From: Modestobacter caceresii
GTDB lineage: Bacteria > Actinomycetota > Actinomycetes > Mycobacteriales > Geodermatophilaceae
Assembly: GCF_000761485.1 (NCBI RefSeq)
Contig: NZ_JPMX01000028.1
Span: forward strand, 1 to 64,000
Length of the DNA stretch: 64,000 bases
Reading direction: 5' to 3'
The translations under genes were made by a program, and so were the position numbers. The notes under the pieces were generated by a model. It was given only the letters and a program-made list of their open reading frames with translations. It was not told where the DNA came from and did not search any database. Positions 4,196 through 7,663 of this stretch are shown here, in pieces (positions within the stretch are counted from its first letter, which is position 1; every line of letters starts with the position of its first letter).

Positions 4196-4795
4196 GTGTA
4201 CGAGGGCGCTGTCCAGGACCTCATCGACGAGCTCGGGCGGCTGCCCGGCGTCGGTCCCAAGAGCGCGCAGCGCATCGCCTTCCACCTGCTGGCCGCCGAG
4301 TCGGCCGACGTCGGCCGGCTGGTCGCGGCCCTGCAGCGGGTGCAGGCCGAGGTCCGCTTCTGCGTGACCTGCCACAACGTCGCCGAGGCCGAGCAGTGCC
4401 GGATCTGCCGTGACCCGCGGCGCACGCTCGACGTCATCTGCGTCGTCGAGGAGCCCAAGGACGTCGTGGCGATCGAGCGGACCCGGGAGTTCAAGGGCCG
4501 CTACCACGTGCTCGGTGGGGCGATCAGCCCGATCGAGGGCATCGGCCCCGACGACCTGCGGGTCAAGGAGCTGATGACCCGGCTGATGGACGGCCAGGTC
4601 ACCGAGCTGATCATCGCCACCGACCCGAACCTGGAGGGCGAGGCGACCGCCGCCTACCTGGCCCGGCTGGTCGGCCCGCTGGGCCTGGCGGTGTCCCGGC
4701 TGGCCAGCGGGCTGCCGGTGGGCGGCGACCTGGAGTACGCCGACGAGGTCACCCTGGGCCGGGCGTTCGAGGGCCGCCGCCGCATCGACGCCTGA
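4196..4795 (+). CDS. recR: Recombination protein RecR
   Basis: The 199-residue protein matches RecR in length and domain order. It has a helix-hairpin-helix ([20 protein letters not shown], residues 11-30), a four-cysteine zinc finger (CVTCHN with CRIC about 10 residues on), a Toprim domain starting [14 protein letters not shown], and a C-terminal [15 protein letters not shown] stretch. RecR works with RecO and RecF to load RecA on gapped DNA. The GTG start at 4196 is favoured because a strong AAGGAG motif lies about 6 nt upstream and the N-terminus then reads [13 protein letters not shown], the normal RecR opening. It is probably co-transcribed with ybaB. Confidence 0.95.
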
Positions 4796-4882
4796 AGAAG
4801 GACCCAGGCCTCTGGTTGAGGGTTCGATCACAGCGACCCCTGGGAACTGGCGGGTGCAGGAGTCACCGGGCACTCTGGACGA

Positions 4883-4957
4883 GTGGTCGGGCCCGGTTCG
4901 TTGACGCGTCGTCGCGCCATCGACCTCATGCGCCTGGCCGGCACGCTCTGTCGGTGA
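4883..4957 (+). CDS. Sulphur-gene-type leader peptide upstream of metNIQ
   Basis: A 24-codon reading frame starts GTG at 4883 (an alternative is TTG 4901) and ends TGA 4955-4957. Its C-terminal part is LTRRRAIDLMRLAGTLCR. This closely fits the small leader peptides found before sulphate, cysteine and methionine genes in actinobacteria, whose pattern is roughly L-T-x-R-x-x-[VI]-D-L-x-R-x-x-[AS]-x-x-C. It lies in the otherwise non-coding 269-nt gap between recR and metN, 107 nt before metN. I infer a cis-acting role in which translation of the Cys-containing end controls metNIQ expression. The family resemblance is from memory and the mechanism is unproven. Confidence 0.65.
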   Translation: MVGPGSLTRRRAIDLMRLAGTLCR

Positions 4958-5064
4958 GCCGACACCCCTGACCGGAGGTCCGCGCCGCGCCCCTGGGCGC
5001 CGAGCCAGCTGGACCCCGGCAGTGGGAGCAGTGCCCGCCGTCCGCTCCACCTGCGAGGACTCCC

Positions 5065-6150
5065 GTGATCGAGCTGTCCGACGTCCGCAAGGTCTTCCCC
5101 GCCCGTCGCACCGCCGGCGAGGTGGTCGCCCTCGACGGCGTGAGCCTGTCCGTCGCCCGTGGTGAGTTCGCCGGCGTGGTGGGCCCCAGCGGCTCGGGCA
5201 AGAGCACGCTGGCCCGGCTGGTCAACCTGCTCGAGCGGCCGACCTCGGGCACGGTCACCGTCGACGGCCGGGTGCTCACCGACCTCGACGCCGCCGGGGT
5301 CCGGGAGGCCCGGCGCAGCATCGGCATGATCTTCCAGCACTTCAACCTGCTCGACTCCCGCACCGCGGCCGGCAACGTCGAGCACCCCCTGGAGCTGGCC
5401 GGGGTCGGCCGCACCGAGCGCCGCCGCCGGGTCGCTGACCTGCTGGACCTGGTGGGCCTGGCCGACCGGCACGCCTCCCGGCCGGCGCAGCTCTCCGGCG
5501 GGCAGAAGCAGCGGGTCGCGATCGCCCGCGCCCTGGCCGCCCGCCCCTCCGTGCTGCTCTGCGACGAGGCCACCTCGGCCCTCGATCCGGCCAGCACGAC
5601 CGGCGTCCTGGAGCTGCTCCGGCAGGTGCGCGCCGAGCTGGGGCTGACCGTGCTGCTCATCACCCACGAGATGTCGGTCGTCCGTGCGGTCTGCGACAGC
5701 GCGGTGCTGATGAGCGAGGGCCGGGTGGTCGACGGCGGTCCGCTGGCCGAGGTGCTCGCCCGGCCGGACTCCGCGCTGGCCGCCCAGCTGGTGCCCGCAC
5801 CGGCCGGCTCCGGGGTCGGTGGTGACCTGGTGCTGGTCACGGTCACCGACGCCACCCCGCACGGCGCGGTCCTGCAGACCCTGACCGCCGAGCTCGGCCT
5901 GTCGGTCGAGGTGGTCGGTGGCTCGGTGGAGACCGTCGCCGGCCGGCGCTTCGGCCGGCTGCTGCTGCGGGTCGAGGGGGACGACGGCCGGCTGGACCCG
6001 GCGCTCGCGCGGCTGCGGGCCGGCGGCGCGCTGGTGGAGCGGGCCGCCGCCGGTGACCCCCGCCCCCAGTCGGACGCCGACGACACACCCCGCCCGGACC
6101 GCGAGCCCGACGTGCAGCGGCTCGCCGACGCCCCGGACGTGCAGCGATGA
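5065..6150 (+). CDS. metN: Methionine ABC transporter ATP-binding protein MetN
   Basis: The 361-residue protein has an ABC ATPase domain with Walker A GPSGSGKST (about residues 40-48), signature LSGGQKQRVAIARAL, Walker B LLCDEATSALDP, and the H-loop LLITHEMSVV. A C-terminal NIL domain (about 255-325, starting LVLVTVTDATPHG) is the methionine-sensing domain that gives transinhibition in MetN proteins. The last 35 residues are an Asp/Arg-rich tail. The start is GTG 5065, with a GAGGA motif 7 nt upstream. The gene overlaps metI by 4 nt (ATGA). It is probably controlled by the leader peptide at 4883-4957. Confidence 0.93.
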   Translation: MIELSDVRKVFPARRTAGEVVALDGVSLSVARGEFAGVVGPSGSGKSTLARLVNLLERPTSGTVTVDGRVLTDLDAAGVREARRSIGMIFQHFNLLDSRTAAGNVEHPLELAGVGRTERRRRVADLLDLVGLADRHASRPAQLSGGQKQRVAIARALAARPSVLLCDEATSALDPASTTGVLELLRQVRAELGLTVLLITHEMSVVRAVCDSAVLMSEGRVVDGGPLAEVLARPDSALAAQLVPAPAGSGVGGDLVLVTVTDATPHGAVLQTLTAELGLSVEVVGGSVETVAGRRFGRLLLRVEGDDGRLDPALARLRAGGALVERAAAGDPRPQSDADDTPRPDREPDVQRLADAPDVQR

Positions 6151-6806
6151 ACGACTGGTCCCGGATCGCCCCGCAGCTGCTGGACGCCACCGGCGAGACG
6201 CTCTACATGGTCGGCGTCGCCACTGCGCTGACCGTGCTGCTCGGGGTGCCGCTGGGCGTGCTGCTCACCATCACCGCGCCGGGAGCGCTCGCCCCGCACC
6301 CGCTGGTGAACCGGGTGCTCGGCCTGGTCGTCAACCTCGGCCGCTCGCTGCCCTTCATCATCCTGCTGGTCCTCGTCGCCCCGGTCACCCGCGGCATCGT
6401 CGGCACGACCATCGGCTCGACGGCGACGATCGTGCCGCTGACCATCGGCGCCGTCCCGTTCCTGGCCCGACTGGTCGAGACCAGCCTGCGCGAGGTGGCG
6501 CACGGCAAGGTCGAGGCGACGCTGGCCATGGGCGCCCGGCGCCGCGACGTCGTCCGGACCGTGCTGCTGCCCGAGGCGCTGCCCTCGCTGGTCGCCGGGG
6601 TCACCGTCACCGTCGTGGCGCTGATCAGCTACTCGGCCATGGCCGGCGCGATCGGTGGCGGCGGGCTCGGCGACTTCGCCATCCGCTACGGCTACCAGCA
6701 GTTCCGCACCGACATCACGCTCGCGACCGTCGTCCTGCTGCTCGTGGTGGTGCAGCTCCTCCAGTGGGCCGGCGACCGCTGGGCCCGCCGGCTCGCCACC
6801 TCCTGA
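6147..6806 (+). CDS. metI: Methionine ABC transporter permease MetI
   Basis: The 219-residue permease has five predicted membrane helices, as usual for MetI. The BPD_transp_1 coupling loop reads EVAHGKVEATLAMGARRRDV (about 112-131), ahead of the cytoplasmic helix contacting MetN. The sequence SYSAMAGAIGGGGLGDFAIR, conserved in MetI proteins, follows near residue 155. It forms the membrane channel for D- and L-methionine with MetN and MetQ. The ATG overlaps the metN stop by 4 nt, implying coupled translation. The metQ gene follows after 35 nt with its own AGGAGAG ribosome-binding site. Confidence 0.93.
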   Translation: MNDWSRIAPQLLDATGETLYMVGVATALTVLLGVPLGVLLTITAPGALAPHPLVNRVLGLVVNLGRSLPFIILLVLVAPVTRGIVGTTIGSTATIVPLTIGAVPFLARLVETSLREVAHGKVEATLAMGARRRDVVRTVLLPEALPSLVAGVTVTVVALISYSAMAGAIGGGGLGDFAIRYGYQQFRTDITLATVVLLLVVVQLLQWAGDRWARRLATS

Positions 6807-6841: not shown

Positions 6842-7663
6842 ATGCGCACGAAGAACCCCCTGGCCGCTGCGGCCGCCGTCGCGACCGCCCTGGCGCTGAG
6901 CGCCTGCGGTGGGGGCACCGCCGAGCTGTCGGCCGAGGACGAGCCCTTGCAGGTCGGGGCGTCGCCGGTCCCGCACGCGGAGATCCTCCGTTTCGTCGAC
7001 GACGAGCTGGCCGACGAGGCCGGCCTGGACCTGGAGATCGTCGAGTTCACCGACTACGTCCAGCCCAACGTCGCCCTGGACGACGGCTCGATCGACGCGA
7101 ACTACTTCCAGACGATCCCCTACCTGGAGGAGCAGGAGGCCAACGCCGGCTACGACTTCACCGCACTGGAGCCGGTGCACATCGAGCCGCTGGGCATCTA
7201 CTCCGACTCGCTGACCGACCTCGCCGCGCTGCCCGATGGCGCGACGGTGGCGATCCCCAACGACCCGACCAACGCCGGCCGGGCGCTGCGGCTGCTGGCC
7301 GCCAACGACCTGATCACGCTGGCCGACACCGGTGACGCGGCGCCCACCGCGCTCGACGTGGAGGGCAACCCCAAGAACCTGCAGATCCAGGAGATCGAGG
7401 CGGCCCAGCTGCCCCGGTCGCTCGTGGACGTCGACGCCGCGGTGATCAACGGCAACTACGCGATCGACGCCGACCTCTCGCCGGCCGAGGACGCCCTCGC
7501 GCTGGAGGAGGCCGAGGGCAACCCCAACGCCAACCTGGTCGTCGTGCGCGCCGGCACCGAGGACGACGAGCGGATCGCCCAGCTCGAGGAGCTGCTGCAC
7601 TCCGACGAGGTGCGGACCTTCATCGAGGAGACCTACGAGGGCGCGGTCATCCCCGCCTTCTGA
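6842..7663 (+). CDS. metQ: Methionine-binding lipoprotein MetQ (NlpA family)
   Basis: The 273-residue protein has a lipoprotein signal peptide ending LALSACGG, with the lipidated Cys at about residue 22. The mature part contains conserved NlpA/MetQ features: LQVGASPVPHAEIL, EIVEFTDYVQPN, SIDANYFQTIPYLEEQ, ATVAIPNDPTNAGRAL and VDAAVINGNYAIDA. The protein captures methionine outside the membrane for MetNI. The start ATG 6842 has GAGGAGAG about 9 nt upstream. The stop codon lies at the foot of a long hairpin shared with the convergent Rieske gene. Confidence 0.93.
   Translation: MRTKNPLAAAAAVATALALSACGGGTAELSAEDEPLQVGASPVPHAEILRFVDDELADEAGLDLEIVEFTDYVQPNVALDDGSIDANYFQTIPYLEEQEANAGYDFTALEPVHIEPLGIYSDSLTDLAALPDGATVAIPNDPTNAGRALRLLAANDLITLADTGDAAPTALDVEGNPKNLQIQEIEAAQLPRSLVDVDAAVINGNYAIDADLSPAEDALALEEAEGNPNANLVVVRAGTEDDERIAQLEELLHSDEVRTFIEETYEGAVIPAF

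Follow-up and report, generated by a model that had tools for sequence, protein, structure and literature searches.

A survey from 2005 describes, in the part of its text available, actinobacterial Cys leader peptides without obvious terminators, and suggests Rho (PMC1262725). Leaders with Cys codons in Mycobacterium smegmatis provide a precedent for such a mechanism (PMC9031893, PMC13236596, both available in part). The peptides Ms5788A and Ms4527A (NF042933 and NF042936; Canestrari et al. 2020, known to us through citing papers) are leaderless and located upstream of sulphur operons, according to the accessible text of those citing papers. In Streptomyces lividans, the leaderless leader peptide metL precedes metNIQ, and no clear terminator is described there in the available part of the paper (PMC8079986). 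As far as these sources reach, both the leader family NF042934 and a leaderless leader ahead of metNIQ in S. lividans are already known. Among the matches listed in our literature search, which covered titles, the beginnings of abstracts and few subscription papers, and for which PMC4633059 (available in part) was a further source, none dealt with an NF042934-type leader ahead of metN or with switching between Cys and stop. We analysed such a leader in a window of 64,000 nt, the whole stretch of DNA studied, from Modestobacter caceresii (GCF_000761485.1, NZ_JPMX01000028.1, positions 1–64,000 of the forward strand); all features below lie on this strand.

The leader frame and its conservation ahead of metN

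The leader peptide frame (MVGPGSLTRRRAIDLMRLAGTLCR, followed by a stop) occupies positions 4883–4957 and reads 24 codons from a GTG start to a TGA end. The original prediction had pointed out a 24-codon frame with the C-terminus LTRRRAIDLMRLAGTLCR, and both are present in the sequence. The frame is flanked by recR on one side (TIGR00615, above its cut-off) and by metN-metI-metQ on the other. Codons 7–22 form the conserved core of the peptide, LTRRRAIDLMRxAxxL; codon 23 is TGT (Cys, 4949–4951) and is followed by CGG and TGA. In hmmscan, the 24-residue peptide matched the NCBIfam family NF042934, "putative leader peptide", with 29 bits against a curated cut-off of 27 (E 5.7e-7), and its proposed identity as a sulphur-type leader peptide was therefore right at the level of the family. 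In the whole-genome search with the same model, this place scored 26.8 bits (E 3.8e-5), slightly below the cut-off. Against the mycobacterial model NF042933 (Ms5788A), where the cut-off is 45, the peptide reached only 30.8 bits. The NF042934 match and the in-frame conservation described below confirm the observation that the frame is more than a chance one.

The predicted position ahead of metNIQ was also borne out by profile and Pfam matches. The gene metN (5065–6150) encodes the ATPase of a methionine ABC transporter with a NIL domain (TIGR02314, 311.8 bits, below the cut-off of 499.7; Pfam NIL, 42.7 bits, above 24). It is followed by metI (6147–6806) for the permease (NF008049, 201.1 bits, below 212; Pfam BPD_transp_1, 62.4 bits, above 26.4) and by metQ (6842–7663) for the substrate-binding lipoprotein (Pfam Lipoprotein_9, 302.4 bits, above 27; PRK11063 MetQ, 202.3 bits, below 374). 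All three proteins thus fall below the strict NCBIfam cut-offs and exceed those of Pfam.

The genome contains four NF042934 places at E < 0.001, the leader at 4883–4957 among them. The other three precede genes for an NIR_SIR protein (nitrite/sulphite reductase type), a TauE/SafE exporter and a two-domain rhodanese. Therefore, the motif, which the original prediction had suggested searching for upstream of sulphur genes, precedes such genes in four of four cases. With the genome itself counted, NF042934 was found in 38 of 39 genomes of the set of relatives (E 0.01) and in 190 of 295 genomes of the class (E 0.001), with a match above the cut-off in 168 of these 295. None of 14 control genomes had a match at E 0.01 or at E 0.001; at E values up to 10, weak matches appeared in 10 of the 14, none of them above the cut-off. 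The frame is a member of a widespread actinobacterial family of sulphur leaders, NF042934. A scan for leaders by a DNA pattern was useless (290 forward and 260 reverse matches versus 182 and 191 in the control) and was discarded. As a separate observation, the gene next to the leaders of the type LTQRRAVDLMRVASQLC (L262, L265 and L269) resembles a winged-helix regulator by eye, and at L265 it is followed by a gene for a sulphate-binding protein.

Of the 112 genomes studied from the bacterial family, 41, the present one included, contain a relative of MetN at E 1e-120 or better. L182 is not readable because its upstream sequence spans just 115 nt, which leaves 40 loci, and a leader stands ahead of metN in 39 of them. 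The original prediction had staked its claim on conservation of the peptide in the metN leaders of close relatives, and it came through this comparison. The core LTRRRAIDLMR occurs with few changes in 21 of the 39 leaders, that of the window included. The other 18 belong to two further types, nearly all of which end in LCR or MCR; L218 ends in LCP plus extra residues. The metN locus L217 (G056:C2:67000-68060) lacks the RRHVDL core and apparently keeps the N-terminal part of the leader, a natural variant for comparison. Outside the bacterial family, a search by regular expression found no leader with this core at the four MetN loci examined in other families of the order (L134–L137; L134 has a frame ending in ACR), nor at 14 named actinobacterial loci.

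Over the 21 closest metN leaders, whose sequences are related and hence not independent counts, pN/pS was 0.46 for codons 7–22 in frame, 0.79 and 1.37 for about the same span in the other two frames, and 1.33 for codons 2–6. Nine residues (L7, T8, R10, R11, D14, L15, R17, A19 and L22) are invariant in 11 distinct aligned peptides. Judged by these substitution patterns, the frame is conserved as a protein, with its core under purifying selection. Two of six fourfold sites in codons 8–19 are invariant, with a mean entropy of 0.47 bits, versus 17 of 128 and 0.72 bits in metN, again counted over related sequences. The synonymous sites of the core are thus somewhat less variable than those of metN; therefore, a minor constraint at the RNA level is possible.

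The cysteine or stop codon at position 23

The codon after Leu22, compared by eye over the 39 metN leaders, encodes Cys in 24 and is a stop in 15; no other sense codon occurs. All of the stops are found among the 21 leaders of the LTRRRAIDLMR type (TGA in 3 and TAG in 12), and the core is intact in them. Eleven of the 15 contain no Cys at all, while the other four (L171, L172, L173 and L178) have one each in the variable N-terminal part. Two leaders of the stop type, L167 and L169, lack internal Met as well as Cys. Therefore, the sensing by a Cys codon that the original prediction implied is not supported as stated: in these alignments, the Cys codon is not part of the conserved core in close relatives.

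A search model that ends ahead of codon 23 matched in 114 of 394 genomes of the class and in 60 of 112 genomes of the family. Among the 127 class matches listed, 89 were read; 87 had Cys at this position and one had Arg (L280), while L342 is probably not a leader. Among the 67 family matches listed, 50 were read, with Cys in 34 and a stop in 16, namely the 15 metN leaders and L362. The last of these (G097:C16:34517-35258; WGLTRRRVVDLCRVTAGG, then a stop) has its stop at the Cys position ahead of a gene for a symporter of the sodium:dicarboxylate family, and a further Cys lies closer to its N-terminus.

The history of the codon was examined on a MetN tree of 29 proteins, from which 11 loci (86–90 residues each), L182 and L134–L137 were left out. 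Six loci of the Cys type are nested within the stop type, and L133, L132 and L131, all with TGA, branch off successively (fork supports 99/99, 99/93 and 99/99; 83/81 for the Cys fork). Within the genus, the stop state is found on three branches in succession, and it occurs in two other genera as well. With outgroup leaders coded as Cys, two changes are enough to explain the distribution, while retention of Cys throughout would need at least four separate losses, counted by eye on the tree. Therefore, the tree suggests that the Cys of the window was probably regained from a stop. An AU test with all the stop rows constrained to one clade gave p 0.053, not quite a rejection; the history with a regained Cys is therefore favoured but not proven.

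Three other interpretations of this codon or its surroundings were dropped. Selenocysteine at TGA does not agree with the 12 of 15 stops that are TAG, and no conserved second stop was seen nearby by eye. Decay of the leader in the stop lineages does not fit cores that stay nearly invariant. A role of the DLMR motif in sensing methionine through its Met codon was dropped since Leu replaces the Met in L167 and L169 and some DLMR leaders precede genes for the use of sulphate or organosulphur compounds. Those of other families stand ahead of genes for TauD-like (L258), SsuA-like (L270) and luciferase-like monooxygenase (L276) proteins, and a sulphate-binding protein is encoded further downstream of L265, the downstream genes having been identified for a minority of these loci only. 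Two loci count against this rejection: the candidate gene at L264 has no match, and that at L260 resembles, by eye, one for a peptide-type binding protein.

The nascent chain itself may stall the ribosome at codon 22/23 in the manner of TnaC and sense a sulphur metabolite, Cys and stop being interchangeable as slow codons in the A site. This reading would account for the nine invariant core residues, for an equivalent of codon 23 that is Cys or stop in 39 of 39 leaders, and for the persistence of the stop state over three successive genus branches and two other genera. However, the synonymous sites of the core are also somewhat conserved (0.47 versus 0.72 bits in metN, over related sequences), so that an RNA-level constraint is possible, and we regard arrest of this kind as a possible explanation to be entertained tentatively. 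A plain Cys-codon attenuator as in mycobacteria, where the Cys codon alone would matter and the peptide would otherwise be passive, draws on published mycobacterial precedent (available parts of PMC13236596, PMC9094748 and PMC9031893) and on the Cys found in 87 of the 89 class matches read and 24 of the 39 metN leaders. However, the core is conserved in the 15 leaders that carry a stop, 11 of which lack Cys altogether, conservation of TRRRAIDLMR would be unnecessary in a passive peptide, and the leader of the window has one Cys codon only. For the metN leaders, we consider this explanation rather doubtful.

Putative promoter, upstream dyad and the gap to metN

A −35-like element, CTGGCG (4847–4852), and a −10-like element, CACTCT (xAnnnT, 4871–4876), are separated by an 18-nt spacer, and the latter ends 6 nt from the GTG of the leader. 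In the 21 closest metN leaders, TGG of the −35-like element is aligned in 21 and TGGC in 20, near −36/−37, and A at −11 and T at −7 are found in all 21. The start codon is at one place in the 21 leaders (GTG in 16 and ATG in 5), and a string resembling a Shine–Dalgarno sequence occurs upstream of it in only 7. A consensus promoter scanner (TTGACA/TATAAT) reported no promoter; therefore, the case for a leaderless start is built on conservation, which suggests that the transcript begins at or beside the start codon of the leader. The −10-like element is similar to the TAnnnT described in the available part of a promoter survey of S. lividans (PMC8079986), but its first T is replaced by C or G. 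At additional loci, those of other leaders, the pattern could be read in 62 cases, 8 of which combined an in-frame start with A at −11 plus T at −7; a leaderless start is therefore not claimed for the whole family.

An imperfect dyad, TGGTTGAGGGTTCGATCACA / TTGAGNGNTCNNTCACA (4813–4832), lies upstream of the putative leader promoter. It aligns across the 21 regions ahead of metN, where TTGAG and TCACA are mostly retained. At up to three mismatches, its consensus occurs at two places in the genome (4813–4832 with one mismatch and another place with three), while the reversed control gave none. The dyad is thus a possible candidate for the binding site of a transcription factor. Its alignment in 21 regions and its near uniqueness in the genome would suit a DNA-binding regulator as the main control, with the leader secondary or a relic. 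However, purifying selection on the leader core, as the substitution patterns suggest, and the retention of a similar peptide by family members elsewhere make this unlikely, and the two layers can coexist.

The 107-nt gap between the leader stop and metN (4958–5064) includes the putative ribosome-binding site of metN, GAGGA (5055–5059). No SAM riboswitch had been visible to the first analysis in this gap, and Rfam agreed: at gathering scores, the whole window contained only one tRNA, and in a lax scan of 4780–5110, the sole match was a microRNA far below its gathering score. A scan found no intrinsic terminator-like site between the leader and metN, in agreement with the 2005 survey as far as its text is available (PMC1262725). 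A trp-type ribosome-mediated transcription attenuator would lack its terminator here, and its alternative hairpin was not seen as a conserved structure over the 21 loci. Conserved RNA structure was found neither over these 21 loci (z +0.81) nor over eight short TAG loci (z +1.37); six near-identical Cys loci gave z −2.9, and the window's own strand and transcript gave z −0.85. Since comparison with column-shuffled controls revealed no structure common to the 21, a covariance model was not constructed. Pairing between the leader core and the metN ribosome-binding site did not exceed that of shuffled sequences (z −0.95 to +1.64 over 21). In six loci of the Cys type, folding predicts the two to be paired, with a pairing strength no better than in shuffled controls. 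Occupation of the leader changed the predicted accessibility of the site little in most of the 21. Downstream of codon 23, the C/G ratio is 1.20–1.97 in all 21, and these values, taken from the 21 loci alone, would be compatible with the action of Rho.

Codon 23 and metN are 83–134 nt apart across the 21 closest metN loci, and gaps of this size, or of about 107 nt as in the window, are long for reinitiation. A leaderless uORF ahead of a leadered gene could load ribosomes, as proposed in general terms in the available part of PMC4833913, but that the leader merely delivers ribosomes to metN and senses nothing is very improbable in view of these distances and of a class-wide peptide core that reinitiation does not require.

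Proposed mechanism and comparison with known leaders

From the comparisons above, it is fairly probable that the frame is translated into a leader peptide of the NF042934 family which acts in cis, probably from a leaderless transcript, to tune the expression of metNIQ. Our preferred model is a leaderless leader on which the ribosome pauses at codon 23. The transcript would start at the GTG of position 4883, as the conservation of the −10 and −35 elements suggests, and the ribosome, once Leu22 occupies the P site, would pause at codon 23. Here this is the only Cys codon, with Arg and the stop after it, so a shortage of cysteinyl-tRNA would prolong the pause; in relatives of the stop type, it would arise through slow release, probably aided by the nascent chain. 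The paused ribosome would alter the 107-nt gap, either freeing the ribosome-binding site of metN or blocking an early stop of the Rho type, and more methionine would be imported when sulphur amino acids are short. One Cys codon alone makes a weak sensor, and the place where the ribosome pauses is perhaps as important as cysteine. More speculatively, the sensor in the metN branch might be the nascent chain (LTRRRAIDLMRxAxxL), which would arrest the ribosome while codon 23 occupies the A site. This codon would have been switched between Cys and stop, so that the supply of aminoacyl-tRNA or the speed of release would be read, and the Cys of the window would have been regained by one base change.

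The conserved core of an actinobacteria-wide family is left unexplained if the Cys codons alone are read. Natural orthologues that differ by one base at the supposed sensor codon (TGT versus TGA) offer a direct test of codon reading against arrest by the nascent chain. The leader is a probable means of controlling methionine uptake without a known riboswitch.

In arrest peptides of the TnaC type, conserved residues precede the stall site, where a stop or special codon stands. The present leader shares this layout, its own stall being a predicted one. With Ms5788A and Ms4527A, as described in the available text of citing papers, it has in common its shortness and Cys near the stop; it differs in its NF042933 score (30.8 bits, below 45), in having one Cys codon rather than a run, and in its downstream gene. 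The metL leader of S. lividans also has metNIQ downstream, is leaderless, as the present leader probably is, and lacks a clear terminator in the available part of its description (PMC8079986), but its peptide is unrelated and contains several Met and Cys codons (MSTTSDRTPATEATTTPGARCMCRRMCAF). Two peptides of the metL type matched no NCBIfam family, NF042934 included. Frames resembling metL stand ahead of metN in all five Streptomyces loci examined (L046, L048, L049, L050 and L057). Since these loci carry the Met- and Cys-rich type, the leaders of metNIQ in actinobacteria are of at least two kinds. With the other members of NF042934 (cis_reg_atten), the leader shares a score above the cut-off, a short ORF upstream of a sulphur gene and a Cys near the end followed by a stop; it differs by the methionine importer downstream and by the stop that replaces Cys in close relatives. 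To what was known of these systems, the present analysis adds a metN leader in 39 of 40 loci, a leaderless signature, conservation at the protein level and the alternation of Cys and stop at codon 23. Judged by its sequence, the leader belongs to an established family of leader peptides but is unusual in the codon presumed to act as its sensor, and we infer that it has a role in regulation.
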